From Patiria pectinifera (lineage: Eukaryota > Echinodermata > Asteroidea > Valvatida > Asterinidae): 64,000 nt of DNA. This document shows positions 12,209 through 64,000 of this stretch, one piece after another. Position 1 is the stretch's first letter, and the number at the start of each line of letters is the position of its first letter. The stretch spans positions 24,096,905 to 24,160,904 of the forward strand of contig CM057134.1 in NCBI GenBank assembly GCA_029964075.1, written 5' to 3'. The position numbers and the translations under genes were made by a program. The notes below the pieces were generated by a model. That model made no database searches, was not told where the DNA came from, and saw nothing but the letters and a program-made list of their open reading frames with translations.

Positions 12209-13651
12209 TTAATGACCCTTTAAACTTTTCCAAGGAGCTAGAATTTTTGATGGAGTGTGGAATGGAATTCCACATCCTAGGGCCAGCGATTGAAAATGCT
12301 CTGTCACCTTTTCTGGTGGTTCGGGGATGTACAAGTTACCCTGGGAACGTAAGTTGCTCTTCGTTGGCCTGGTGTCTAATGAATTGGAAATGTACATGGG
12401 GAAAATACTGGAAATGCATTTATACATGTTCAAAGCCGTTTTATACATTATACGTTTCTCTATTGCAAGCCAGTGCAGCTGTTTAAACAGTGGAGAAGTG
12501 GGAACATGTTTTGGATAGGAGAAGATTACACGAGATGCTCTATTTTGGATTTTTTGTAACTTGACTAAGTCAGATTGTTTGAGACCATTTAACAGTGAAT
12601 TACAGTAGTCCAATCTTGACAGTACAAGTGCCCGGACGGCAGCGTGACATGCTTCATCGTCAATGTACTTTCGTATTCTCCTAATGTTTCGGAGGTGATA
12701 GTTGGCTGATTTGCAGATAGACGTGACGTGATCACTCATCGACATGGTGTTGTCGAAAACAACACCGAGATTCCGGATAGAAGTTGATGGGTGGAGTGTG
12801 CTGTTGTTTATGGTGAGAGTCAGGTGGGCTAGACGTTTGTAGTTGTAATTAGACGAGGCAATGAAGAATTCAGTTTTCTTCTCATTTAGTTGGAGCTTAT
12901 TGCGTAACATCCAGCGTTGAACGTCAATGATGCACTTAGAGAGCTTGAACAGCCCCAGTTCTGCATCGTTAGGGGTTTGTGGGTCAAATTCAACGTAGAT
13001 TTGGATGTCGTCAGCATACAGGTGAAATTTGACGTCGTGCTGACGAAGAACGTCGCCGATGGGGGCCAGGTACATTGTAAAGGCTTGTGGGCCTACAGAT
13101 CCTTGAGGTACTCCGAAACGAAGAGCGGCTTCATCAGAAGTGGCACCATCAGGTAAGATAACCCGACTCCTGCGGTTATCGAAGTATGACTTGAACCAGT
13201 CGAGTGCTGTGCCAGTTATACCAAATCTGTCATGGAACCGTTGTAGTAGTGTGTCGTGGTCTAGGGTATCGAAGGCGGCTGAAAGGTCCAGCATGACCAT
13301 GAAAACGGCGTTGTTTTTGTCTATTGCTCTGAGGATGTCGTTTTGCACGCAAAGCAGAGCAGTTTCGGTTCTGTGGTTTGGTCTGTCATGTCTGTAGGCG
13401 GATTGTAGGGGTTCTGCAAGCTGGTGCTCATCGATGTATTCGGATAGTTGTTTACAGGCGACTTTTTCTGTTAGCTTGGCTAGGTACTGGAGATTAGAAA
13501 CAGGGCGGTAATTCTTGAGGTCTTCTTTATTGAGAGACGGCTTTTTTAGGATTGGAGTAATGACAGCCATCTTGAATGAGTCTGGGAAAACCCCGGATGT
13601 CAGTGAGGTATTGACGATCTCAGTCAGCTTCGGTAGAAATGTGGCCATGTG
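12209..13651 (-). pseudogene. LINE reverse transcriptase, main and C-terminal part
   Basis: This part contains the core palm motifs of non-LTR reverse transcriptase: [12 protein letters not shown] (motif A, about 13245-13300), the GVPQGS turn, and LYADDIQIY (catalytic Tyr-Ala-Asp-Asp, about 12990-13027). The C-terminal region then runs to the natural stop, with NLGVVFD, a [11 protein letters not shown] segment and an HWLAIEKRI segment typical of CR1/L2 elements. The enzyme would copy LINE RNA at a nicked chromosomal site. The upstream edge is cut by the hAT MITE, which puts about 60 foreign codons in front of [11 protein letters not shown]. Within this piece the frame is open throughout, so the insertion is the main lesion here and the element is fairly young. 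Confidence 0.9.
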
Positions 13652-14007
13652 CAGTGGCGTCACCAGAATTTTCAGTCTGGGGGCACAGGGGGGGGGCACC
13701 AGCATTTGATGGGGGCACTTAGGTGGATACGGGTCGCCGTCCGGGGGGAGGGGTCTAAAGGGAAGGGGGCGCCCCCTCCCCTTTGGAAAATTTTCGCATA
13801 CGGAGGATGGGCTAGATGCAAAATGGTGCCACATTTGATGCTAAATTCGATCTGAAGATATCTCCAGAAATTGCTATTTTTGAGGTAATGATTTTAACAA
13901 CGCGCAGAATTTTGCAGAGGATAGGGGGGGCACCAGCATTTGATGGGGGGCACTCGGGGGCACTAGGTTTTCGGGGGCACGTGCCCCCTGCCCTGGCGAC
14001 GCCACTG
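13652..14007. mobile_element. hAT-type MITE inside the LINE reverse transcriptase
   Basis: A 356-bp element beginning CAGTGGCGTC and ending GACGCCACTG, with G-rich subterminal runs. It is flanked by GCCATGTG (13644-13651) and ACCATGTG (14008-14015), an 8-bp target duplication matching at 7 of 8 positions. CAGTGGCG ends and 8-bp duplications are typical of hAT non-autonomous elements. It splits the LINE frame at the HM codons; the LINE sequence on both sides joins directly if it is ignored. Confidence 0.9.
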
Positions 14008-15449
14008 ACCATGTGCTGTTTGATTGTCAAAGCTGGAATTATGTCAAGATGACACGATTTGGCCGTTGAACCATTGATGATTTTATGGAGGTATTCGTCA
14101 GGGATCGGCTGGAAATGAGCGAAGTGAATGTTAGGGGGACGTGCTTGTGTGTCAGCAGGTGAAGTTAAATCAACTTGTAGGTCATCCAAGTGAGCTCGGA
14201 TAGTCGTAATTTTGTCGGTGAAAACTTTGCAGAAATTGTTAGCAAGAACTACCGGTGAGTCCTGAATCGACAGCATTGACCGGGGTTTGCCAGTGAGGTC
14301 ATTGACAATGCGGAAGACTTCCTTGGGGGTGGAGCCCATCAGCGAATCTCTATAAAAATCTGATTTGGCTTTAATGAGGACTTCAGCAAGTTTGCATTTG
14401 CATTGTTCGTAGGTTGTACGGTCAGTGGTGAGTCTAGATTTTCGCCACTTACGTTCTGCACGACGGCGTCTGCGTCGCGCGTCATCCACGTCGTTGTTGT
14501 ACCACTTTGGTTTGATGCGTTTGGGCTTAGGTTTTGAAGTTGAAACAGGTGCATGGAGGTCGAGCGCATGGTTAACTGCAGAGTTAAATGCTTCAACGAT
14601 CGTGTCAACATCACCCTCACAGGTGACATCACGGAGACAGTACGACAAGTCACGAGCAAAAGCATCATGATCAATGTTGCGAAAGTTACGGAATTTCGCT
14701 GCCAGGATAATAGGCTGAGGTTTAACAAAGTGAAGTTTACAATTGATAACGGCGTGGTCCGAGACGCCATTCATGTCAATTATGCAATCACTAATCAGTT
14801 CATCGTCGTCAGATCTTATGATAATGCCATCTAAGATGTGTCCAAGCTTGCGGGTGGGACCTGAAACGAGTTGTTTGAGTCCATGAGCAGCTAGCGTAGA
14901 GTGGACATGAGACGTATCCGATTTGTGGGGACAGTCAAAGTCAATGTTAATACATGTAAACCCTGGTGGGGTTATTTCATTGATGACTACTTGATCATCA
15001 AAGTCAAGCCAGGTTTCTGTTAGGAACATTATGTCAATGTTCTGAGATATGATGTAGTCACAAATGATCAGGGATTTATTGCAGGCAGATTGGACATTCC
15101 AATGAGATACGTTTAGAGTGCTGGAATAGTCTTCTGAGGGACTGCGTTGTGTCGCAGATGGTTGCAGACAGTTTTGGACGTTTGAAGTGTTCTTGGTCTT
15201 ACGGTGGCGGATGTGAGAGCCGGCACGCCGACTTCGTAGATGCAACACTCCCAGCTTCTTAAGATTATGGAACATTTGGGTTGGCAATGTACACAAGTTG
15301 TTGCCATGTTTTATTGCAAGAAGTTCGGATCTAGTGTTAATGTGAGTAGCTGTCATTGAATTTGTTCGATCAAGCTGTTCGCTTCCATTCAAAGTGACGT
15401 AATAAGCAGAGTCTAGCATTGTTGTATCGTTACCGTGATAAGTTATCAC
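14008..15449 (-). pseudogene. LINE endonuclease and N-terminal reverse transcriptase part, with internal deletion
   Basis: Reading from 15449 down: an N-terminal tail, then an endonuclease start (HWNVQSACNKS and FLTETWLD, about 15110-14990). An abrupt join follows near 14945, where GFTCIN is fused directly to IDFDCPHKSDTS. In intact relatives the Gly-rich strand and the GDFN-type catalytic loop lie between these, so I infer an in-frame loss of roughly 70-80 residues. The endonuclease resumes to its SDHAVI motif (about 14760-14745). A basic linker and the first RT block (EVFRIVNDLTG, then PIPDEYLHKIINGS) follow. The frame then runs into the MITE. The first codons from 15449 read through repeat-array sequence; a Met at about 15419 is an equally good start. 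Confidence 0.85.
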
Positions 15450-15870
15450 AGAAATCCGGAACTCAAAAATACATATTCCTTGATACCGCGTTACCGTGAT
15501 AATTTTATCACAGAAATCTGGAATTCAAAGATAGCTATTCTTCGATACCGCGTTACCGTGTTAATTAATCATAGAAATCCGGAATACAACGATAATTTCT
15601 TCCTCGATACCGCGTTACCGTGATAATTTATCACAGAAATCTGGAATTCAAAGATAACCCCTTCCTCGATACCGCGTTACTGTGTTAATTAAACACAGGA
15701 ATCCGGAATACAACGATAATTTCTTCCTCGATACCGCGTTACCGTGATAATTTATCACAGAAATCTGGAATTCAAAGATAACCCCTTCCTCGATACCGCG
15801 TTACTGTGATAATTTATCATAGAAATCCGGAATTCAAAGATATCGATTCTTTGATACTGCGTTACAAGTG
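15425..15870 (+). repeat. 62-bp tandem array with alternating unit types
   Basis: Units start with TCGATACCGCGTTA at about 15480, 15542, 15604, 15666, 15728 and 15790, with partial copies at each end; the period is 62 bp. Two variants alternate. One carries ATCTGGAATTCAAAGATAACC, the other ATCCGGAATACAACGATAAT, giving a 124-bp dimer. Each unit centres on a small palindrome (CGTGATAATTTATCACAG or CTGTGTTAATTAAACACAG). The reverse-oriented array at 17805-18010 is the same family. Confidence 0.85.
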
Positions 15871-18984: not shown

Positions 18985-20265
18985 GCTGTTTCTTGCTCCT
19001 CGTCTGGGCCCAGCTCATTTTGACAACTCCTCCGGGTGTTGAAGTCGTAGGCATGATTTGCACTCATCTGGGGGGTCAAATGTTGCAATAAAATTCAGGC
19101 TTATGCATTACATTGTTCTACAAGTTGTCATTGTGTTTTCTTGCCCTTCTATTTCATGCGCTTGACGATGCTGGCCCCCACCGGGTACAGCTCCATGCAC
19201 ATACAGTGATCGGTGAGTGTTGTTTCATGGACTTGCTGTAATAATTGAATTAAATGCTCTGGGCCCATCTCATTTTGACAACTCTTCCGGGTATTGAAGT
19301 CGTAGGCATGATTTGCACTCATCTGGGGGGTCAAATGTTGCAATAAAATTTAGGCTATAATGCATTACATTGTTCTAAATGTTGTCATTGTGTTTTCTCG
19401 CCCTTCTATTTCATGCGCTTGTCGATGCTGGCCCCACCGGGTACAGCTCCATGCATATACAGTGATCGGTGAGTGTTGTTTCATGGACTTGCTGTAATAA
19501 TCAAATTAAATGCTCTGGGCCCAGCTAATTTTGACAAACCCTTCCCGGTGTTGAAGTCGTTGGCATAATTTGCACTCGTATGGGGGGTCTAATGTTGCAA
19601 CAAAATTCAGGCTAATGCATTACATTGTTCTAAAAGTTGTCATTGTGTTTTCTTGCCCTTCTATTTCATGAGCTCGATGATGCTGGCCCCCACCGGATAC
19701 ATCTCCATGCACATACAGTGATCGGTGAGTGTTGTTTCATGGACTTGCTGTAATAATTGAATTAAATGCTCTGGGCCCATCTCATTTTGACAACTCTTCC
19801 GGGTGTTGAAGTCGTAGGCATGATTTGCACTCATCTGGGGGGTCAAATGTTGCGATCAAATTCAGGCTAATGCATTACATTGTTCTAAAAGTTGTCATTG
19901 TGTTTTCTTGCCCTTCTATTTCATGCCCTCGACAATGCTGGCCCCCACCGGATACAGCTCCATGCACATACAGTGATCGGTGAGTGTTGTTTCATGGACT
20001 TGCTGTAATAATTTAATTAAATGCTCTGGGCCCATCTCATTTTGACAACTCTTCCGGGTGTTGAAGTCGTAGGCATGATTTGCACTCATCTGGGGGGTCA
20101 AATGTTGCAATAAAATTCAGGCTAACAGTGCATTTCATTGTTCTAAAAGTTGTCATTGTGTTTTCTTGCCCTTCTATTTCATGCGCTCGACGATGCTGGC
20201 CCCAACCGGATACAGCTCCATGCACATTCAGTAATCGGTGAGTGTTGTTTTATGTACTTGCTAGT
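18985..20265. repeat. 255-bp tandem repeat, about five units
   Basis: The anchor word GATTTGCACTCATCTGGGG recurs at 19055, 19310, 19567, 19822 and 20077, giving spacings of 255, 257, 255 and 255 bp. The first unit is fused to the unrelated stretch on the left, and the last decays after about 20230. On the minus strand each unit keeps an open frame of about 61-64 codons (SANHAYDFNTRKSCQNEMGP onward), always ended by the same stop. The copies are close to identical. I recognise no protein family; it may be a tandemly amplified fragment of a retroelement. Confidence 0.85.
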
Positions 20266-45700: not shown

Positions 45701-45930
45701 CAGCTAGACTGGTTTTACCGTACAGTTTTCCTGCACCTATAAATTGATCCATTTCATCTATAGTGGAGTCGGGGAACCAGAGTACTTGAACATTTGTGTT
45801 TTTCTTGGTTTTCTTGCATATGCCAATGATGTACATTCCGTTTAAGCTTACTACATATATAAACAGGCATGCAACCAGGAATTTAGAAAAACAAAATTAG
45901 CCAACTCCAAACCACATATTTTGTAAATGT

Positions 45931-48900
45931 TTGTTATTTATGATTGTTTCAATTTTTTTTTCTACAGAAAACTACCAAAGAGCCATCATGAAAGTGAAGA
46001 AGGAGTTGAAGTGTGTGCGAGGCCTGAAGAAGGGGAGGAGTTCTCCGTTTCCCTTGTCTGTCCGTGGTGTGTCTCATTTCATTTCCCAATCATCCATCCA
46101 ATCATTTCATTCCATCCCGTCCGTGTGTTTTGTTAATTCATCATCACCCACTTCATTATCCTCTGTATGCGGGGCTCACCAGGCCGCTAATCCTGGCAGA
46201 ATTACGGAATGCGGGGCTCACCAGGCCGCTAATCCTGGCAGAATGAATGAATGCGGGGCTCACCAGGCCGCTAATCCTGGCAGAATGAATGTATGCGGGG
46301 CTCACCAGGCCGCTAATCCTGGCAGAATTACGGAATGCGGGGCTCACCAGGCCGCTAATCCTGGCAGAATGAATGAATGCGGGGCTCACCAGGCCGCTAA
46401 TCCTGGCAGAATGAATGAATGCGGGGCTCACCAGGCCGCTAATCCTGGCAGAATGAATGAATGCGGGGCTCACCAGGCCGCTAATCCTGGCAGAATGAAT
46501 GAATGCGGGGCTCACCAGGCCGCTATTTATCCTGGCAGAATGAATGAACATTATGATAACAATTATAAGACATATAGTAAATGTATGATGAATGAATGCG
46601 GGGCTCACCAGGCCGCTAATCCTGGCAGAATGAATGAATGCGGGGCTCACCAGGCCGCTAATCCTGGCAGAATGAAGGAATATGATAAAAAGTATGTTCA
46701 CGTATATAGTCAATCTATGGTGAATGAATGCAGAAAGCAGAAAAAGGTTGAGAAAAATGGCTTGAGACTGAAAGTACATGAAATGAGAAGGAAAAGAGTG
46801 CTGAAGTTGACGAAGAAAAGACTTGATGATCAGAGAGCTATGAGGGTGTTGTATGGTTACTTGAAAGCAAAACACATTGTGAGAAGCAACAAGAGAACTT
46901 GTACAGAACATCAGCGTGAGAATAGGTCAAGAAAGAAGCATGTGAAAGTTAGTAGAAAGAGGACAAGAAGAGAAATTTGCAAGGAATCATATAATAGAAG
47001 AAGGCATGGAAAAAGAATTGAACTATGGCTGAGTAAGGAAGAAAAAACAGTTCATCAAAAAGTACAAAAGAATGTATTCTGTAAGACTAAACGAAGTCTG
47101 TCATTTGTTTTGAAGAAGATGCAAGATGTCAGTACAGAAACGAAAAACAAGAAAAGGCATAGGAATAATGAACGTTGTGTGAATAATGTGAAGGAACATG
47201 TCAAGCATAGTTCTGAAATGCAAACGGCTGAAAGGAGCCAGACAGTGATGGATATGAATGTAGTGAAATCAAAAATACAACGGAGAAACAGTCAGATGTG
47301 TGATGGAAACAGACATGATCAAACTGTCAAAGCAAATCAATGCAATGAAGAGTGTTGGTTTTGTGATCAGAGTATTGACTTGTTTGAAAGGAAAGTGCAA
47401 TGTGATGGTTGTAACATTTGGTACCATGTCAAATGTATGAATTTCTTGAAGATGGAGGAATTGTTGGCAAACAGAGCAGTGGTATGGATGTGTCGTAAAT
47501 GTGGTAAGAGTACTTACTCTCAATCTCTTTTGTATGATCTTGGTATTCCAACAGATGATAATGTATTTGAGATGACTGTTGAGGAGACATGCACTATAGA
47601 TGATGTAGTTCAGCAGACGTGTATTGGAACATGTGGACAAGATAGCAACTGGGATGATGAGACAAATCATGTAAGTAGAGAGGGAAGAAAGACAAGTTCA
47701 GTAGGCATTGAAAAGAGTACATGTACTGTAGGATTGATGACTAAAGGAAAACAACCGATATGTCAGCAGACAGGTGGTTATTCATTAAGAAAGAAGAAAG
47801 GCCAGTCTTCAAATTCACAGAATGTAGATGGAAGTAAAACTAAATTGGAAAAAACAGTTGAAAAGGAAAGTGGAAATTGTATTGCACGCAAACATGTCAG
47901 TGATGGTGTTAAATATGATAATATAGAAAAGTCTGAAGCCGCAGATATGCAAGGTGATGACAAAGAGTCGTTACAAACAAAACGAAGTAGAAGATATGAA
48001 ACGAGAAATAGAAAACGACAAATGTCACCTACTACTACAAGCTGTGAAGTGAAATGTAAAGAAAAGAAAATGATGGATGTAGTTGAAGATAAAAAACATG
48101 AAATTAAAAATAGTTTGAATAAATGCACAGTTCAGAATAGTAGGAAATTGGACAAAATGATTGTGCAGGGAACCTTTCATCAAGGAGATCATAGATTTGC
48201 TGGAAACTCTGGTAAACAATGTGTTTCAAATTCTCTGTGCGCTGTTTTGATAAGTAAAATAAAACAACTGAAAGACTGGTCTTGTCAAGATATGGATACT
48301 ACACTGAATACTGGAAATGAATTGTATAGCCACCTGTCTCGAAGTTCTACAGTTACTCATGATTATTTGCTGGTAAATGAATTGCCAAATGAGTTAGACC
48401 TGCTGTATCATCATTTCAATATGGAGTTTCATGATCCTGTATGTGGTGCATTTGGAGATGAGTGCAATTTGCCTGAATTTAATATGATGCCATTGAATCG
48501 TGCACTAGAACAGACACTTCAGCAATATTATGCATGTTTCATATGTTTCCACGAAAATACATTTGTTGTGATTTCTCAAGATGGGATGTATTATGTTTTT
48601 GATTCTCACTCTAGAAATCAGCAAGGATGTATGGCTAGTGAAGGACGAAGTTTGCTGAAATGTGTTTCTGATTGGCAAGATGTGCACAGGTATTGTACTG
48701 ATTTGGCAAGATCTATGCGTTTGTCTAATAATGAGCAGTTTGAAATTACAGGTGTATCTGTGTGGTTAGATGATGAGCCAAAGGTGGATGATGAACCGGA
48801 CAATGAGCATGTCGATAAGGCAGGTCAGAGTACAGCAAAAGAGGTTGGAGGAATTGGTTCTGAAGCAAAGCTTGATCCTTGTGGCTTGTCAACTAGTTGT

Positions 48901-50208
48901 TCAAGCAATGTCACTGATAGTTTTCACATGATAAATGACACTAGTGAATGTGATGAGACTAGTGATGTTGAAATCAAAGAAGTGATTCAATTGCACAATT
49001 TTCATTTTGCCCCACTGACACATGCAAAGAAGAAGGAACTATGTAAGATACATGGCTTGATCAATGTACTCCGCAAAGGCAATGGAGATTCAGATGATTG
49101 TGAGGTGATGGGACCACCTAATTGCGTAAAGAAAATCAAAGGTGATGGCAACTGTTTTTTCAGGGCAGTTTCATTTTGTGTATCAGGAACTGAAGATAAT
49201 CATTTGAAGTTACGGATGGCTACTGTGAATCACATGTTGCAAAATGGAGATAAATTTAATGGTGTTCTGCATGAAGGGTTTAGGAATGTGGAAGAATATG
49301 TCACCAGGCAGAGAATGTTTGTTTCTGGAATTTGGGCTACAGAAGTTGAGATCATTGCAATGGCACATATGCTATGTACAGATATATATACATATGATGA
49401 TTTGAATAAATGGTATGTATTTTCTCGGAGTATCCTAGAAAGAGAGACTTTGAAATCAGAGCAAGGAATTTACTTGTATCATCAGCAAAGAGTTCATTAT
49501 GATGTTGTTTTGTCAGTTTGTCAATCTACAAGAAAGTCTGTTTCTGATGTGAATGGTCAACCAAAGGGAAATGTACAAGAAATCTCCAATAAAGTATCAA
49601 ATGATGATGAAAGAGCCAAAACAAATTTAACGTCTGACAAGATTGACAAGAGTGACCGACAGGATAAAGATACAAAGCGTAAAAGGGTGAAACGTGTTAA
49701 TGTGCAATTGAAGCAAAAAATTGCAAGACAAAAGGCTAGGGAGAGATACAAACAGAAAACAAATGATAAAAAGGAGGATGACAAAGGAATGAAGATTGAC
49801 AAATGTAGTTCTCATGATGGGACAAAATTGAGATCAGGAAATGCAGGAAATCCTAAGGACAAATTAAAAGATGGAAAGAAGTTTAGTAAGGATGAGTCTA
49901 AGCACAGAAAAAGAATCTATGATCAAATGAGATACAAAGAAAAAGCTGACAAGAAAAAGAAAGCACTGAACATGAAGTATCGTGATGACACTGAGTATAA
50001 AACACAGCGACTGAAGGCTGAAAAGAGAAAGTACGAGACAAATGCTTCACATAAAGAGACCAAAATAAACGATGGTAAACTTAAGTACCATAATGACTCT
50101 CAATATAGGCAGACTTTAATAAACAGTCAGAAATCAAAGTATCAATGTAATGCTGCATATAGAGAAAAGGTAATTAATTGTGCAAAGATAAACGGCAAAA
50201 AAGTATGA
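45931..50208 (+). CDS. Helitron polyprotein N-terminal part: PHD finger, C76-like and OTU cysteine proteases
   Basis: Frame of 1425 codons. Residues about 79-250 hold eleven GAHQAANPGR repeats, followed by a Lys-Arg-rich region. Residues 471-526 form a PHD-like zinc finger (CWFCDQS, CDGCNIWYHVKC, CRKCG), a fold that commonly reads histone tails. Residues about 745-935 look like a C76-type deubiquitinase: Q751, C764 and the D891-x-H893 pair are in the order and spacing of that family's catalytic residues. Residues 1065-1195 are an OTU domain with GDGNCFF (D1072, C1075) and HYDVV (H1189), the complete Cys-His signature. From about 1345 on, 18-residue KYxxxxxYRxxLI repeats begin. OTU domains are known in some animal Helitrons; the PHD plus two proteases is the unusual part. 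The stop at 50206 is a frameshift artefact or lesion, not a natural end. The first 12 codons are probably intron. Confidence 0.85.
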   Translation: MLFMIVSIFFSTENYQRAIMKVKKELKCVRGLKKGRSSPFPLSVRGVSHFISQSSIQSFHSIPSVCFVNSSSPTSLSSVCGAHQAANPGRITECGAHQAANPGRMNECGAHQAANPGRMNVCGAHQAANPGRITECGAHQAANPGRMNECGAHQAANPGRMNECGAHQAANPGRMNECGAHQAANPGRMNECGAHQAAIYPGRMNEHYDNNYKTYSKCMMNECGAHQAANPGRMNECGAHQAANPGRMKEYDKKYVHVYSQSMVNECRKQKKVEKNGLRLKVHEMRRKRVLKLTKKRLDDQRAMRVLYGYLKAKHIVRSNKRTCTEHQRENRSRKKHVKVSRKRTRREICKESYNRRRHGKRIELWLSKEEKTVHQKVQKNVFCKTKRSLSFVLKKMQDVSTETKNKKRHRNNERCVNNVKEHVKHSSEMQTAERSQTVMDMNVVKSKIQRRNSQMCDGNRHDQTVKANQCNEECWFCDQSIDLFERKVQCDGCNIWYHVKCMNFLKMEELLANRAVVWMCRKCGKSTYSQSLLYDLGIPTDDNVFEMTVEETCTIDDVVQQTCIGTCGQDSNWDDETNHVSREGRKTSSVGIEKSTCTVGLMTKGKQPICQQTGGYSLRKKKGQSSNSQNVDGSKTKLEKTVEKESGNCIARKHVSDGVKYDNIEKSEAADMQGDDKESLQTKRSRRYETRNRKRQMSPTTTSCEVKCKEKKMMDVVEDKKHEIKNSLNKCTVQNSRKLDKMIVQGTFHQGDHRFAGNSGKQCVSNSLCAVLISKIKQLKDWSCQDMDTTLNTGNELYSHLSRSSTVTHDYLLVNELPNELDLLYHHFNMEFHDPVCGAFGDECNLPEFNMMPLNRALEQTLQQYYACFICFHENTFVVISQDGMYYVFDSHSRNQQGCMASEGRSLLKCVSDWQDVHRYCTDLARSMRLSNNEQFEITGVSVWLDDEPKVDDEPDNEHVDKAGQSTAKEVGGIGSEAKLDPCGLSTSCSSNVTDSFHMINDTSECDETSDVEIKEVIQLHNFHFAPLTHAKKKELCKIHGLINVLRKGNGDSDDCEVMGPPNCVKKIKGDGNCFFRAVSFCVSGTEDNHLKLRMATVNHMLQNGDKFNGVLHEGFRNVEEYVTRQRMFVSGIWATEVEIIAMAHMLCTDIYTYDDLNKWYVFSRSILERETLKSEQGIYLYHQQRVHYDVVLSVCQSTRKSVSDVNGQPKGNVQEISNKVSNDDERAKTNLTSDKIDKSDRQDKDTKRKRVKRVNVQLKQKIARQKARERYKQKTNDKKEDDKGMKIDKCSSHDGTKLRSGNAGNPKDKLKDGKKFSKDESKHRKRIYDQMRYKEKADKKKKALNMKYRDDTEYKTQRLKAEKRKYETNASHKETKINDGKLKYHNDSQYRQTLINSQKSKYQCNAAYREKVINCAKINGKKV
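45948..45967 (+). promoter_or_regulatory. Likely 3' splice site before the Helitron coding exon
   Basis: A pyrimidine tract ends in CTACAG at 45967, immediately before coding-like sequence. The twelve codons upstream (from 45931) are hydrophobic and unlike the basic protein after them. I therefore infer that the true coding exon starts at 45968 with an upstream exon not identified; Met at 45988 is the alternative start. Confidence 0.5.
46168..46675 (+). repeat. Eleven 42-bp in-frame coding repeats
   Basis: Units start with TGCGGGGCTCACCAGGCCGC at 46168, then every 42 bp to 46504, and again at 46597 and 46639. A 51-bp non-repeat insert follows unit nine. Forty-two bases are fourteen codons, so the frame is preserved. 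A long minus-strand open frame here is only the mirror of the repeat. Confidence 0.95.
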
Positions 50209-50560
50209 AGATGATTGTTCACACAGAAGAAGGCGAATTAATTCTGCAAAGACAAAGTATCGTGATAATTGTGCATACAGAGAAGGGCTAATTAATAGTG
50301 GTAAAGCAAAATATCGTCAAAACTTTCAATATCGAAGTAACCTAATTGAAACTGGAAATAGAAAGTATAAAAATGATGATGTGTACAGGCAAAAGAAAAT
50401 TAACAGAATGAAATGTACATACCATGATAGTGCTTCATATAGAAAGAAGCTCATTGCAAGTATGAAAAAGAAATACCGCTGTGTTGTTTCATACAGAATG
50501 AATTTGATTAAGTATGGGAAAGAAAATACAAGACTAATCATCGATACCGTAGAAACATGA
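50201..50560 (+). pseudogene. Frame-shifted middle piece of the Helitron polyprotein
   Basis: The 18-residue KY repeat continues here in the second frame: successive units begin KYEDD, KYRDN, KYRQN, KYKND, TYHDS and KYRCV. The shift in occurs at the A6 run 50197-50202 (one A too many for the frame). The shift back occurs at the A run 50523-50526 (one A too few), after which the repeat resumes in the first frame as [12 protein letters not shown]. Two compensating homopolymer indels suggest base-calling error, or very recent decay. Confidence 0.85.
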
Positions 50561-51646
50561 TAATCAACAATCACAGACGTGCCCTTATGGAAAAAGAAAA
50601 GAGACGTAAAATGTGTATTGTGACAGTAAAATTTAGAGAAGACATATCTAAAGGACCAGAATATGTCTGTGCGTGCTGTCATAAACTTCTTTTTCGAAAA
50701 CAAGTTTTGAAATGCAATAAATATAAATATGAAGACCAGTTGTATATTAGTGATGAATATCTGCACGTGTGTAGTGAAAATTGTGAGTTAAAATGTATTG
50801 TTGGAGAATCAAGTAGATCGCATTTGTGGATATGTTACACATGTCATAGAAAACTACTTGTGAACAAAGTACCTGCAGAAGCAAGTCTAAACAATTTAAA
50901 CCTGATTGATATCCCTGATGAATTGGCTCGTTTGAATACACTAGAACAACATCTAATCGCAATAAATGTACCGTTCATGAAAATGATTGCATTACCGAAA
51001 GGCGGCCAGCATGGTGTTAAAGGTCCAGTTGTATGTGTACCATCAAATGTAACAGACACAGTCAATGTATTACCCAGGCCCGAAAATGACAATCAGTTGA
51101 TCCGAGTCAAATTGAAGAGAAAATTGACTTATAAAGGATATTATCAGTATCAATTTATAAACAAGGAGTATGTTGAGAGTGCCTTGAAGTACCTCCAGCA
51201 CAATAATAAATGGTACAGTTACATTGAAATAAATACTGAATGGGAGAATCCATTGTGTGAAGATGTTGATGAAATGGAGCAGCATGTGGATGATGCAAAA
51301 GAAGAGGTTAATAATGAAGGTGACAGTAAAGATGAAGAAAATGATGACGAGGAAACAGATGATGATCGGTTGCGGGGTGTTGCATTAGACACTTGTCTAC
51401 AGCCGAGTAATATAGGCCAGGAAATACTTGATCAGTACTTTGATGAAGTCATATGTGTTGCACCTTGTGAAGGCAATAGTCCAATCAGAATATTAATGGA
51501 AAAGGGCAATGAAGCAAAATGCTTTCCAGCATTATTTCCGATAGGTCAGCCTACATTTGATGATGATCGTAATGTGAAGTTAACTCTGTGTAGATACTTG
51601 CACAATCGACTGATGAATGTAGATAATAGATTTGCAAAGACTACGC
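50557..51646 (+). CDS. Helitron replicase-helicase N-terminal region (partial, runs into gap)
   Basis: The same frame as the first part, so this is a continuation rather than a separate gene; the Met at 50557 lies inside the last KY repeat. It contains a Cys-rich module ([19 protein letters not shown]). The block typical of proteins upstream of Helitron replication domains (DUF6570 type) follows: [41 protein letters not shown], then [11 protein letters not shown]. An acidic stretch at about 51260-51365 is followed by [13 protein letters not shown] at about 51520, the opening of the Helitron-like N-terminal domain. The gap then cuts the gene before the HUH nuclease. The role is rolling-circle transposition; the gene is incomplete here. 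Confidence 0.9.
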
Positions 51647-52146
51647 NNNNNNNNNNNNNNNNNNNNNNNNNNNNNNNNNNNNNNNNNNNNNNNNNNNNNN
51701 NNNNNNNNNNNNNNNNNNNNNNNNNNNNNNNNNNNNNNNNNNNNNNNNNNNNNNNNNNNNNNNNNNNNNNNNNNNNNNNNNNNNNNNNNNNNNNNNNNNN
51801 NNNNNNNNNNNNNNNNNNNNNNNNNNNNNNNNNNNNNNNNNNNNNNNNNNNNNNNNNNNNNNNNNNNNNNNNNNNNNNNNNNNNNNNNNNNNNNNNNNNN
51901 NNNNNNNNNNNNNNNNNNNNNNNNNNNNNNNNNNNNNNNNNNNNNNNNNNNNNNNNNNNNNNNNNNNNNNNNNNNNNNNNNNNNNNNNNNNNNNNNNNNN
52001 NNNNNNNNNNNNNNNNNNNNNNNNNNNNNNNNNNNNNNNNNNNNNNNNNNNNNNNNNNNNNNNNNNNNNNNNNNNNNNNNNNNNNNNNNNNNNNNNNNNN
52101 NNNNNNNNNNNNNNNNNNNNNNNNNNNNNNNNNNNNNNNNNNNNNN
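51647..52146. other. Assembly gap of 500 N
   Basis: Exactly 500 unknown bases, which looks like a scaffold placeholder. Translations across it are meaningless. It interrupts the Helitron gene. Confidence 0.98.
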
Positions 52147-55918: not shown

Positions 55919-57907
55919 CAGAGTTGCTGACTCGAGTCATGTGACTTGGACTCGAGTCGCTATTTTTGTGACTTGTGACTTGACTTGTAAATACCAGCTT
56001 TGACTTGTGACTTGACTTGGACTTGCAAACAATGACTTGTGACTTGACTTGGGATTGCAAAAAATGACTTGTTACCAACCCAAGTCAGACGCTACTCGAG
56101 CGACCCAATACACTTTAATTAAGCTATTATACTTTTAATTAGCTTTTTCTTTCCAGAAAATAGACCTCAGTGACTGAATCCAGTAAAATGAATAGTTCCC
56201 ACTAGTGTAAAAAGTGTTCAATAAGACTGTCACAACAAACTACAGTTTTCAATGACCAATTGTTTCTTGCTTAATGTATTGGTTGAACAAACTTTGAAAG
56301 GAACCTTTCATGAAAAGAAAGCGGGCCTTTGTCAATTGCATGTAAAATACCGGATAGCCTAACCTACGAAAGCCCTGTAGTGCCATCAAGTATATATTTT
56401 GTCCAAGTTCGTTTTTACGAGATTTTTTTTCTCGAAGTTCGTTTTTACGAGATTTTTTTTCTCGAAGTTCGTTTTTACGAGATTTTTTTTCTCGAAGTTC
56501 GTTTTTATGAGATACATTTTCTCGAAGTTCGTTTTTATGAGATATATTTTAAGGAGTTAAAGTTACGGAGCCCCTAAAAGGACATCCAAAATTATTTTCT
56601 TATCTCGTGCGCACGACATAATATCTCGTGCGCACGACATAATATCTCGTGCGCACGACATCCCCACTTCGCCCCATCCCCGCTTCGCCCCATCCCCACT
56701 TAGCCCCATCCCCACTTAGCCCCATCCCCACTTAGCCCCATCCCCACTTCGCCCCATGTAGATTGGTATTGTCGTTCTCAGATAAGTGGGAGACGGGTTG
56801 GTATAGCCGGGTTGGGAACAAAGTTGGATCTTTTACTTCAAGCTTTTTTTCTCGGTAGCGGAGAGTGATAGCTTGAGAGGTTTGTTATGAATTGTTCATT
56901 TGGTCAATATTGGTGGGCTAATTCTTTCCGTTGGTTAGCAATTAGTGAATCTGTTGGAATTGTTTTTAAGCCAATAAAATACATTTAGATGAGATTTTTT
57001 TTTACATGTAAAAGCTGGGGCGAAGTGGGGATGGGGCGAATTGGGGATGTGGCGAAGTGAGAATGGGGCGAAGTGAGAATGGGGCGAAGTGGGGATGGGG
57101 CGATGTGGGGATGGGGCGAAGTGGGGATGGGGCGATGTCGTTAGGGGCGAAGTGACATGGGGCGACGTGGAAATGGGGCGAAGCATCCGACATTCCATGA
57201 GATGTATGTCGTGCGCACGAGATATTATGTCGTGCGCACGAGATATATGTCGTGCGCACGTGATAATTATCTCGTGCGCACGAGATATTATGTCGTGCGC
57301 ACGAGATAAAAAAATAATTTTGGATGTCCCTTTAGGGGCTCCGTAACTTCATAAAACTCCGTAACTTCGAGAAAATGTATCTCATAAAAACGAACTTCGA
57401 GAAAAAAAATCTCGTAAAAACGAACTTCGAGAAAAAAAATCTCGTAAAAACGAACTTCGAGAAAAAAAATTTCGTAAAAACGAACTTCGAGAAAAAATAT
57501 CTCGTAAAAACGAACTTCGAGAAAAAAAATCTCGTAAAAACGAACTTCGAGAAAAAAAATCTCGTAAAAACGAACTTCGAGAAAAAAAATCTCGTAAAAA
57601 CGAACTTCGAGAAAAAAAATCTCGTAAAAACGAACTTCGAGAAAAAAAAATCTCGTAAAAACGAACTGCGAGAAAAAAAATCTCGTAAAAACGAACTTGG
57701 ACAAAATATATACTTGATGGCACTACAGGGCTTTCGTACTTGACTTGTTTTTAGACCAAATGACTTGTGACTTGACTTGTGACTGGACCTAATGACTTGT
57801 AACTTGACTTGTGACTGGACCTAATGACTTGTGACTTGACTTGGACTTGCAAACAATGACTTGTGACTTGACTTGGACTTGCAAAAAATGACTTGCTGCC
57901 ACCTCTG
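55919..57907. mobile_element. hAT-type element rich in GACTTGTGACTTGACTTGG, with a nested insertion
   Basis: The left end is CAGAGTTGCTGAC and the right end GCTGCCACCTCTG. The flanks are TGCACTCT (55911-55918) and TGCAATCT (57908-57915), an 8-bp duplication matching at 7 of 8. Subterminal regions on both sides (55925-56085 and 57739-57895) are tandem GACTTG-type repeats in opposite phase. The middle is occupied by the second copy of the concentric-array element. Confidence 0.75.
56365..57738. mobile_element. Concentric-array TIR element, copy 2 (reverse orientation)
   Basis: The TACGAAAGCCCTGTAGTGCC ends and all three array layers of the 474-1851 copy are present. The unique core is reversed (GGTTAGCAATTAGTG near 56933 against CTAATTGCTAACC near 955). 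Left layers: about five 30-bp units, three 21-bp palindromes and about six 16-bp units. Right layers: about eight 16-bp, five 21-bp and about twelve 30-bp units. The 30-bp unit here ends TCTCGTAAAAA against TCTCCTCAAAA in copy 1, uniformly within each copy. I found no target duplication for this copy. Confidence 0.85.
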
Positions 57908-59320: not shown

Positions 59321-60269
59321 ATTGATGACTGCATTTTCAGAATAAACAATCTTGCGCTGCGCGGGTTGGGGTGAATATGGCACGGTTTCTAAATTCCATT
59401 CTTCAAAACAACATCGTCAAGATTTAAACGCGTGTAGTGAGCATACCATATACACGCAGGCAGTTGGTTCCGATTCCGATTAATCCCAGATATGTGGAAT
59501 GTCACTTCACAATCCACGAAGATGTAGGCCACGGGAAATGTCACAAGTATTGTATATAACTCGGTCATTTAAAGGAAGGTATCTTTTATGTAATGTCTCT
59601 TCATTTTTCACGGTACCAATAGCAATTAAATCGTCACAATGATTTGTTTAACTTTTTTCTCGCTCTTTTTTTTGTTGTAAAGGTTATTCTTTGCACTTCA
59701 CTGATCTTTATGTCCCTGACGGAGAATTTTTTTAAGGAACTAGCCTATAAAGACTGTGTTTTTATTACCAGACAGAGACTTAGAAACGATCGACAAATGT
59801 AAAAAAAAAAAATCAAAATCACAGCTACTGGTATACGTACCATAATCACGCCTACGTAATGTGTAGCATAGTAGTAGTATGCATCTTTCCAGTTGTACAC
59901 TCACAGTGCCCCGTCCGCCTCCCATTTGTTGTCCCACACTGTTGCCATGGCGATCGTACTCCTAGCTGCAAGATTCATTACATCAGCCGAACAATACATC
60001 TATCTGATTATAATCGTCACACAGTTTTCATTACACAGTGACAGACGAATGCGAGCGGTCTTGCTTTTTGTCAAATGAGGGCACGTGGGCAAAAAGATAA
60101 CAAAATTGATTGTATCTACCGCCGTGGTTTGACCGACCAACCAACCTATTTCATCCATTTGGTCACGGTAAATTGAATTTGCAAACACTTAACTAAACGG
60201 AACATACGCCTTCATGGATGGACTTCATTTCAACTCGCCAACTGCTGTTGATTAGTCGATAGTACCACG
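59321..60269. promoter_or_regulatory. Upstream region of the receptor gene
   Basis: Non-coding sequence before the receptor start. I see no convincing TATA box, and the transcription start cannot be placed. The 5' untranslated region may include upstream exons. Confidence 0.3.
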
Positions 60270-62342
60270 ATGGGGCGTAGCGGTTTGGTTCTTCTTGCTG
60301 TCTGCATTCAATTTACCTTTGGCGCTCACTTACCCCCCGAAGTCTGCTCCATTTATACCCAAACGGGAGATGTGTATATCGGTGGCGTATTCTCACTCCA
60401 TGCAGATGATGAACCTGAGGGAAAGGAGAGAGGTTTACCTCAAGGATGTAAGACACGTCTACCTATCAGTTCTCTGCAGATTGTTGAGGCCATGGTCTAT
60501 GCGGTGAAGACAATCAACGACAATGACACTATCCTTCCTAATGTCACCCTGGGGTTCATGATCCATGATGATTGTTCTAGGGATGAGTATGCTATGTGGG
60601 GATCACTGTCCCTCCTGATGGGTGCTCGGGCGGTCATTGAGGGAGCAAGCTGTAAGATCCCCGGAATGACGTCTGGGAACAAAGACCAATGTGTTGTGGG
60701 TCTGGTGGGCACGGGGAGAACATCCTCTAGTGAGACAGTTTCAAGCACAGCAGGGCTGTTTGAGAGGCCGCTAGTCTCTTATGGCGCCACGGGCCAAGAG
60801 CTCTTGAATGGGGAGGCGTTCCCGTACTACTTCAGCACCATTGCCTTTGACAAGTATAAGAATAAAGTCATCCTGGACATACTAGATTACTTCGAGTGGC
60901 AATATGTAGCCTTGGTATATGCAGCAGGCTATGATACGCTTGACATGATGGAGGACCTTAAGAACGCAGCCGTTGTTCAGCATGTGTGTATGCACATAAA
61001 TATAATGGTCAGTGAGGTTCCTACGGGGAAGGAATTAAACACAATGGTCAACCTGTTGCAAAGTAATAAATATGCGAAAGTCGTTGTGCTGTTGGCCTCG
61101 TCTGCGGTAACTGTTAATGCTGTGTTTTCAGCTGCTCTGGAGGCAGACCCGCCTATGAACCTTACATGGATTGTGAGTACTGCGTCGGAAAATGTTCAGA
61201 TCTTGCAGAGTCGCCTTGCGCAAGGCAGTCTATTCATCGAGTATGACACCCCAGAACTAAACGGGTTCGAGCGGTACTTCCGTTCCCTGACAAATGGAAA
61301 CACCGAAAACCCATGGTTCAAAGAGTTCTGTGTGGATTTAGACAAATGCATGTCATCAAGCCCAGAAGGATTCAGTAAAACAATACCGACCCTAGCTCCG
61401 ACTATGGACGCAGTTTATGCGTTGGCTTATGCTCTGGATGAGACAATACGCCGTATGAACTGCAGTGGCATGATATCGAATTGTCTCACAAGTCATGGCG
61501 CCGAAACCGTTTTTGCAGGAATGCTGCGGGTTGTTTCTTTTCCAGGAACGAGGGGTGAATTTAGATTCAGTGAAGACATTAGATCCGTTTCAGGTCATTT
61601 TATCATCAAAAACATGCACGAGATTGACGGTACGTTCAGGATGGTAGAGGTTGGTTCGTGGAGCTCTGGTTCGTCCACACGTACGCGAAGGCCCATGAGC
61701 GTTACGCCACTGACCATTGATGAATCTTTGATTCAGTGGAACAGAGATTTGGGAGATAAGACTCCCAGGTCTACCTGTAAGGAGGAATGTGGCCCGGGGT
61801 ATGTGGAAGAGGCGCTGGCGAAGAGATGCTGCTGGGGTTGTCGAGCATGTTACTCCGACGAAATCGTCAACGGGACCGATTGCATAAAGTGCCAGCAAGT
61901 ACAGTGGCCCAATGATAACCAAACTGCATGTGTAGATCTTGTCCCGGTAACGGTCACCTGGTTAAATCCATCGTCCATTATGCTGGTCTCTCTGGTGTGT
62001 CTTGGCCTGCTTCTTTGCTCACTATCTGCAATAGGTATGATCAGATACCGACACCATCCATTGATCAAAGCCAGCAGCAGAGAGTTGAGTTGCGTCAACA
62101 TCTTAGGTCTCGTCTTGGGTTACCTGGCCGTGTTACCTCTCCTCCATCCCCCAGGACCCCTAGTCTGCGGCACAGCTCAGGTCTTGTACGCCCTAGCCTT
62201 CACCATGATGTATGCCCCACTTCTGCTCAAAGTAAACCGTATCTACAGGATCTTTGACAGCAGCGCTAAGTCTGCCAAATCTCCTAAATACACTGGACCT
62301 CGAGCCCAGCTGTTGATCGTTGCCCTGCTGGTTGCAGTTCAG
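60270..62342 (+). CDS. Metabotropic glutamate receptor-like class C GPCR, first large exon (partial gene)
   Basis: It encodes 691 residues up to a splice donor. A hydrophobic signal peptide (about 1-19) precedes a Venus-flytrap ligand domain (about 25-480) starting SIYTQTGDVYIGGVF, with the SSS cluster at 152-154 and GAT at 172-174 where mGluRs hold the amino-acid ligand backbone. A nine-cysteine domain follows (C503 to C554, all nine visible). TM1 (about 566-588), TM2 and TM3 come next, with IL2 sequence (LLLKVNRIYRIF) and the start of TM4 (AQLLIVALLVAVQ). The remainder of the seven-helix domain and tail must lie beyond the window. The aspartate expected in the mGluR VASD-type loop is not evident (here VSTASEN), so the ligand may not be glutamate. 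The start codon has A at -3 and G at +4. The protein acts in the plasma membrane as a G-protein-coupled receptor, probably a dimer by family knowledge. Confidence 0.9.
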
Positions 62343-62350
62343 GTAAGAGT
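62343..62350 (+). promoter_or_regulatory. 5' splice site after receptor exon
   Basis: CAG|GTAAGAG at 62342/62343 matches the donor consensus and falls between codons (phase 0). It is immediately after the Gln that, in the family, lies in TM4. Open reading beyond it (16 codons) is intron. Confidence 0.85.
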
Positions 62351-64000
62351 ATTTTCAAAATGCGATATATATAGGGCAAATTCATTTGAGTGAAAAAAAG
62401 GTTGCACTTGTGAAAACTTATAAGAACATACACAGAAAATGACTGCATGTTTTTTTACTACAGTATCCGATTTTAATTGTGTTTTATCCTATTTAGCTTT
62501 CGAAACTGACTTAGGAAACTTAGGGAAATCAGGAGAGGGTGGGATTAAAAAAAAGGTACCAAAAATGGCGATATTCTAATCAAATATTTTTTGGTAAAAC
62601 ATGCAGGAGCCTATTCAGTGATTATTGTGCAGGTATTACATGTTCACTTTTAACTGTTGTCGTTTTCATGAATCAGTTGAATTAAAAACAAAATCTAAAT
62701 GATATAAAAGGGCATAGCCTGTGCCCTATTTCAACTAATTGCTCTTTTGTAAGAAGCTTTTGTACACTAAGAGGACAACAGAATAGAAAAAGCGATAACC
62801 CCTTTTATTTCATTAAAATATCAAAATGCACCATCAAAGTTCTGTAACGTTTCTCTAAGATTTGATCGGTTTTATCGATATTTAAGTCCCATCTAGTACA
62901 AATAGGTTTTGGGTGGGTTTTTGTTCGGGGGGGGGGGACGTTGCCTCGCAGAGGGCCAGCCAAGTGTCCATTTTGCGCTTGCCTGACCGCCTGACTGACT
63001 CGCTGACTCGATCACTCACTGACTGTCACTTGTGACCACGGGGTACTTATCTCAACTGACTTCTCACCGTCCATGTCTCGGAGCAGCTTTATATGACGCT
63101 TGCCTATTCATGTGATGTAGCACTACTCCATACACATGTGCAAATTGTGTGGTCAATATTTCAAGTTTCCGTGCGATCGACGGAGGTTCAGTTTTTATTT
63201 TCATCGCGTCGCTACTTATACAGCCTATACTTTTATTTATTTTCTTGCATTCTGAATCAATGTTCCGGACAGCTGTGTAGGCTTGCTTCTATCATATTGA
63301 AGTTCCCTAAAACGGCGAAAAGAAATCCAATTTTTTTAAAACAACGTTTGATGCAACACACGGCAGATGTATAAAAAAAATATTTCATCACATGATAATA
63401 TTCTTTCAATATGCAGTATATGATACAACATAATAGGACATTTATGTTTCTCGTGGTCATGTATATATATATATATATATTTTTATATGGGTATAAATTA
63501 TATATATTAACAGCTTTTAGACAAATTGACAACGTGCGTAGGTCGTTTCAAAAGCTGCCCGTTGTCAGTAAAATGCTTGTTGTCGATGTCACTTCAAGAT
63601 AACCTGACCATCAATTCTGCCATAGCCTTGGGCGGCATAACAACGAGTATCAAGTCGATAAAACCAAATCACGTATGCAAAAGCTCATTAGTGGACCCAT
63701 TAATATCTCTTACGGCTCATTACTAGCTTTCAAAGTGCATGGTTCTTCCAAGCTCGTTATGTTTTTCCATTGATGGGGGAGGTATAATCAAGATTTAATC
63801 ATTTTCCAATGACATATTTCAAGGGCAAAAGGAAAGTCGTCCTGATGAACAATAATTCACTGGATACACATTCTTTTGATTACTCAGCAACAGCGGCATA
63901 TCTTTGAAAAATTAGTACGGCACTTTTTGTCATCTTGGACGTATTTTTTTATCACGACAATATGCAAAAGTATCCAGTGGTATTTATCTTAATTAAAAGC
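62343..64000 (+). other. Intron of the receptor gene (no exon recognised to window end)
   Basis: No sequence resembling TM4-TM7 appears, so the next exon is outside the window. It contains a G run near 62929-62938, tandem CTGACTGACTCG-type words near 62985-63030, and a TA microsatellite at 63461-63481. Confidence 0.6.

Follow-up and report, generated by a model that had tools for sequence, protein, structure and literature searches.

A PHD finger beside paired VTD and OTU protease domains in a multicopy, probably Helitron-type element of the sea star Patiria pectinifera

One open frame in the genome of the sea star Patiria pectinifera (613.5 Mb) encodes a PHD finger and two cysteine protease domains of different families, and this raises the question of whether the three belong together in the protein of a mobile element and what they would do there. 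The frame, P0001, lies in the window, by which is meant the whole stretch of 64,000 nucleotides that was analysed (contig C6, 24096905-24160904). From the stop frequency of the window, the chance of a frame as long as this one is approximately 10^-35 per place, and a Pfam scan of the window identified PHD, Herpes_teg_N and OTU matches within it, each above its curated cut-off. The features of the locus are the following.

45901..50208, plus strand: open frame P0001, 1,435 codons from stop to stop, first ATG at 45988
46167..46681, plus strand: in-frame 42-bp tandem repeat of 11 units, encoding a CGAHQAANPGRMNE-like peptide
47353..47502, plus strand: PHD finger, Cys4-His-Cys3 (P0001 485-534, Pfam E 4.2e-6)
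48169..48759, plus strand: VTD/Herpes_teg_N-like cysteine protease domain (P0001 757-953; Q761, C774, D901, H903)
49138..49503, plus strand: OTU cysteine protease domain (P0001 1080-1200 plus D1201; D1082, C1085, H1199)
49975..50557, plus strand: basic KYxxxxxYR-like repeats, each approximately 18 residues long, spanning the first frame change
50512..51646, plus strand: next open stretch, in another frame and ended by the assembly gap (P0002, 50512-51630)
50863..51243, plus strand: DUF6570 (P0002 118-244, Pfam E 1.3e-21)
51647..52146, no strand: assembly gap of 500 N, where the Rep/helicase part would be expected

The catalytic residues listed in a previous sequence-only reading of this DNA are all present in P0001, the numbering of which is that of the reading plus 10. 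The two frame changes that it described are also real: P0001 stops at 50208, the basic repeat carries on beyond this point in a second frame (P0006, 50210-50560), and P0002 follows in yet another; they may stem from sequencing errors or from decay. A string resembling a splice acceptor occurs before 45968, the start named in that reading, and the 42-bp minisatellite within the polyprotein keeps the reading frame throughout 46167-46681.

The claim that the protein runs on into the N-terminus of a Helitron replicase fared less well. What follows is DUF6570, a neighbour of Helitron replicases, and then the 500-N gap, and a Rep nuclease/helicase was not confirmed. In the window copy, whose frame meets this gap, no Rep, helicase, endonuclease or element termini were seen, and two short frames beyond the gap gave no Pfam match. 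Likewise, Pfam analysis in one frame of six related loci detected no Rep, helicase or endonuclease, which the short reach of these loci (approximately 3.45 kb) allows. The Helitron identity is therefore drawn here from published relatives and from copy number.

Genome-wide, 73 VTD matches were identified on 16 contigs, all above the Pfam cut-off, with 62 free of stops and 11 having stops within the match. The number of elements is smaller than 73, as two pairs of matches represent double VTDs within one frame. No VTD match was found in 14 control genomes, and no relatives were found among viral contigs, plasmids and phages. The sole bacterial match (L021) was rejected, its YYIFDSHSR string being shared by chance with a frame that is presumably a TRAP-transporter-type binding protein.

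The 20 best-scoring of the 73 matches were read as loci of about 3.45 kb each, several of them near-identical. Using tblastn with the domains of the window, a PHD was located upstream of the VTD in all 20 and an OTU downstream in 17, and Pfam analysis of six of these loci gave Herpes_teg_N in six, PHD in six (four above the cut-off) and OTU in five. As the order PHD-VTD-OTU recurs in other copies, a chance fusion of the three is ruled out, and the domains are not those of a host gene that happens to lie next to the element, an outcome for which the sequence-only reading had left room. Two loci that are 99.6% identical to each other (L004, L016) have the arrangement PHD-VTD-PHD-VTD, with the second VTD about 1.9 kb on and no OTU detected by tblastn within 1.5 kb of the first VTD; none was detected within 1.5 kb in L020 either. 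Broken copies were also present, with the OTU match split over frames in L001, L002, L008, L009, L011 and L015, and with the VTD match of L019 interrupted by a stop. Four copies on contigs C7 and C16 are 97.5-99.3% identical across approximately 3.45 kb, which speaks for mobility and, together with the spread over 16 contigs, marks a dispersed, recently copied repeat. Given that many of the 20 loci are near-identical, independent lineages are fewer, about seven when grouped by their identities.

Analysis of dN/dS (NG86; pairs with dS of 0.1-1.2 kept, these pairs not being independent) indicates that the PHD, VTD and OTU are under purifying selection across the copies. Median values were 0.31 for the PHD (78 pairs, 21 sequences), 0.18 for the VTD (71 pairs, 19 sequences) and 0.29 for the OTU (16 pairs, 10 sequences), placing the PHD near the OTU and above the VTD, and the highest value among these pairs was 0.50. 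Sequences covering less than 85% of a domain were dropped (PHD 0/20, VTD 2/20, OTU 8/17), and L004 and L016 entered the PHD comparison with their second PHD. Many comparisons involving the window exceeded a dS of 1.2; against its nearest copy (L018), it gave 0.18 for the PHD, 0.26 for the VTD and 0.19 for the OTU.

The first of the two protease domains had previously been called C76-like from the order and spacing of its residues. Herpes_teg_N was matched at P0001 760-908 (Pfam E 3.7e-8), and the best solved relative of residues 757-953 was 8ADD, at 3.1e-8 with the single sequence (phmmer) and 4.4e-12 with a profile built from 11 VTDs out of the window and the 20 loci. Pfam, phmmer and this family profile all agree on the tegument-type deubiquitinases, so that the call is upheld and the domain is identified as a viral tegument-like deubiquitinase (VTD). 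On the same matches, the idea that residues 757-953 are not a protease was rejected. The profile also matched herpesvirus large tegument proteins (6ppb, 0.0014; 6w2d, 0.0021; 7et3, 0.042), which share the domain family of the window VTD but differ in being structural proteins of a virus, and in which we know of no PHD. The match to a bacterial (Waddlia) VTD is not considered real, as its value of 0.5 with the profile sits next to that of an unrelated chance chain (0.77). The entry 8ADD is a zebrafish Helitron VTD, deposited under the title 'ATP-dependent DNA helicase' (PMC9741609).

The Gln, Cys and Asp-x-His catalytic residues are invariant in the 19 VTDs aligned (L015 and L019 dropped for their split matches). 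Among these are the counterparts of the Cys, Asp and His of DrT1-VTD2, mutants of which are described as dead (PMC9741609). Glu377, described in the same article as mattering for cutting in the zebrafish VTD, corresponds by alignment reading to the E of an ELP motif, which is E in 17 of the 19 and W in L008 and L009, and the Asp376-equivalent position is N, S or T among the 11 sequences of the profile. A single-sequence AlphaFold2 model of the window's VTD had a mean pLDDT of 31.

The OTU signature noted previously is likewise present (D1082, C1085, H1199), with a Pfam E of 6.4e-9, above the curated cut-off, and an OTU profile matched OTUD5 at 9e-11. The D and C of its DGxC motif are invariant in 10/10 copies and the H/D pair in 9/9, the tenth row of the alignment ending before H/D; eight of the 17 OTU loci were left out as partial.

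The pairing of VTD with OTU, which the sequence-only reading had described, has already been published for Helitrons in 121 cases (PMC9741609). That reading is supported in part: its C76-like call stands, the replicase was not seen, and the deubiquitinase activity and chromatin targeting that it suggested are predictions. The VTDs of zebrafish Helitrons have been demonstrated in vitro to cleave ubiquitin chains (PMC9741609); for transposon OTUs, this activity is a prediction. The zebrafish elements DrT1 and DrT2 (Erven et al., 2022) are alike in having a VTD with Cys and Asp-x-His. DrT2 combines it with an OTU as here, and DrT1 possesses two VTDs without an OTU, resembling L004 and L016. Both differ from the present element in that the main text of the article makes no mention of a PHD. 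Helentrons with an OTU-type protease (Thomas et al., 2014; PMC4067079) are similar as rolling-circle elements, but the terms PHD, tegument and C76 do not occur in the main text of that article. Ginger1-9_HM (Ginger1, PMC2836005) has a PHD finger and a ubiquitin-like-protein protease in one transposon protein, yet differs in its integrase-type DDE transposase and in having Ulp1 instead of VTD and OTU. CR1-like retrotransposons are on record with a PHD, judging by a reference title in PMC4021074. For a PHD in a Helitron, no report was found in the titles and beginnings of abstracts of the papers listed, a weak negative because this scope excludes Repbase and subscription papers. It is thus the PHD finger beside the known two-enzyme pair that looks new.

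Taking these results together, the frame is probably the N-terminal part of the polyprotein of a Helitron-type rolling-circle element (probably a Helentron) that is present in many copies, this one being interrupted by the assembly gap, with the VTD and OTU as deubiquitinases and the PHD as a histone tether. The two enzymes would act during transposition and might thereby spare the Rep/helicase of the element, or host factors where it is located, from ubiquitin-marked degradation or silencing, and the PHD would tether this activity to histone tails or chromatin. Protection of transposition proteins from degradation has been proposed for VTDs (PMC9741609). If the PHD is fixed in these elements, one transposon protein would unite two distinct deubiquitinase folds and one for histone reading, and would offer a concrete system for asking how rolling-circle transposons exploit host ubiquitin signalling and chromatin. 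The herpesvirus tegument deubiquitinases are proposed to derive from a Helitron-type element (PMC9741609), so that such PHD-VTD-OTU elements would also bear on the origin of these viral proteins; in Alloherpesviridae, an OTU is described in place of the VTD (PMC9741609).

The role of the PHD is the part of this proposal most open to another reading. The PHD-like zinc finger seen previously matched Pfam PHD at 4.2e-6, above the curated cut-off, with all eight zinc ligands present in the window. Its constraint across copies speaks for a functional module; yet a zinc ligand is changed in four of the 21 aligned PHDs (L001, L014 and the second PHD of L004 and of L016, in both of which the zinc-binding His is replaced by Tyr), with all eight ligands intact in 16 and one (L019) ambiguous. 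In many PHDs, the residue before Y-H forms part of the H3K4me3 cage, and here the position varies among W, F, V, R and Y, which argues against a single shared methyl-lysine (histone) mark. It is therefore possible, if somewhat doubtful, that this zinc finger binds nucleic acid or protein without reading histones, a view with which weak additional matches in L006 to C1 and RING-like zinc families, below their Pfam cut-offs, are consistent, as is the statement that animal Helitrons have a zinc finger, its type unstated (PMC4067079). Against this, the window's finger exceeds the Pfam PHD cut-off and the PHD profile matched PHD chains of Pygopus (1.1e-5), Bye1 (0.00036), MLL (0.00058) and, further down, BPTF (0.0042).

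A histone tether aside, the VTD and OTU could be processing proteases that, like those of viruses, release the PHD, the protease portion and the Rep/helicase from the long translation product. Such cleavage would be reasonable given the open frames of more than 3,000 codons in which six distinct VTD matches lie, and cleavage of Helentron subunits by the OTU is a published idea (PMC4067079). We nevertheless consider this unlikely, as two unrelated protease folds exceed what processing needs and the nearest relatives of the VTD are shown to be deubiquitinases (PMC9741609).

It is improbable that the locus is a domesticated gene of transposon origin that serves the host and merely resembles a piece of a Helitron, since there are 73 matches genome-wide, with near-identical copies on different contigs, and since the two frame changes and the coding minisatellite of this copy fit an unconstrained copy better, notwithstanding the purifying selection on the domains, the Rep part unseen in the window and the domesticated VTDs of insects and nematodes (PMC9741609).

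The VTD matches are unevenly distributed in the genome. At least 38 of the 73 VTD matches are on contig C7 (44.85 Mb), where 5.3 would be expected, and at least 37 fall in its first 22 Mb, where 2.6 would be expected, both expectations being based on length alone. This excess may reflect copies arising by local duplication, and this part of C7 may be rich in repeats, non-recombining or sex-linked. That the PHD is a conserved targeting module, coupling the two deubiquitinases to a chromatin state and thereby concentrating the element in a single chromosomal compartment, appears highly improbable.

Rfam and tRNA scans of the 64-kb window returned nothing. Elsewhere in the window, a reverse transcriptase (2.4e-27) on the minus strand at 12209-15524, with an endonuclease in a second frame (0.011, below the cut-off), is probably the remnant of a non-LTR retrotransposon. 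A tandem repeat with a unit of 255 bp is present in 4.9 copies at 19003-20262, and a family 3 GPCR-like receptor at 60252-62393 (ANF_receptor, 1.1e-44; 7tm_3, 1.4e-27). Nested arrays of 30-, 21- and 16-bp repeats at 56392-57738, inverted about their centre and with similar units at 320-1828, look like a repeat-built palindromic element.
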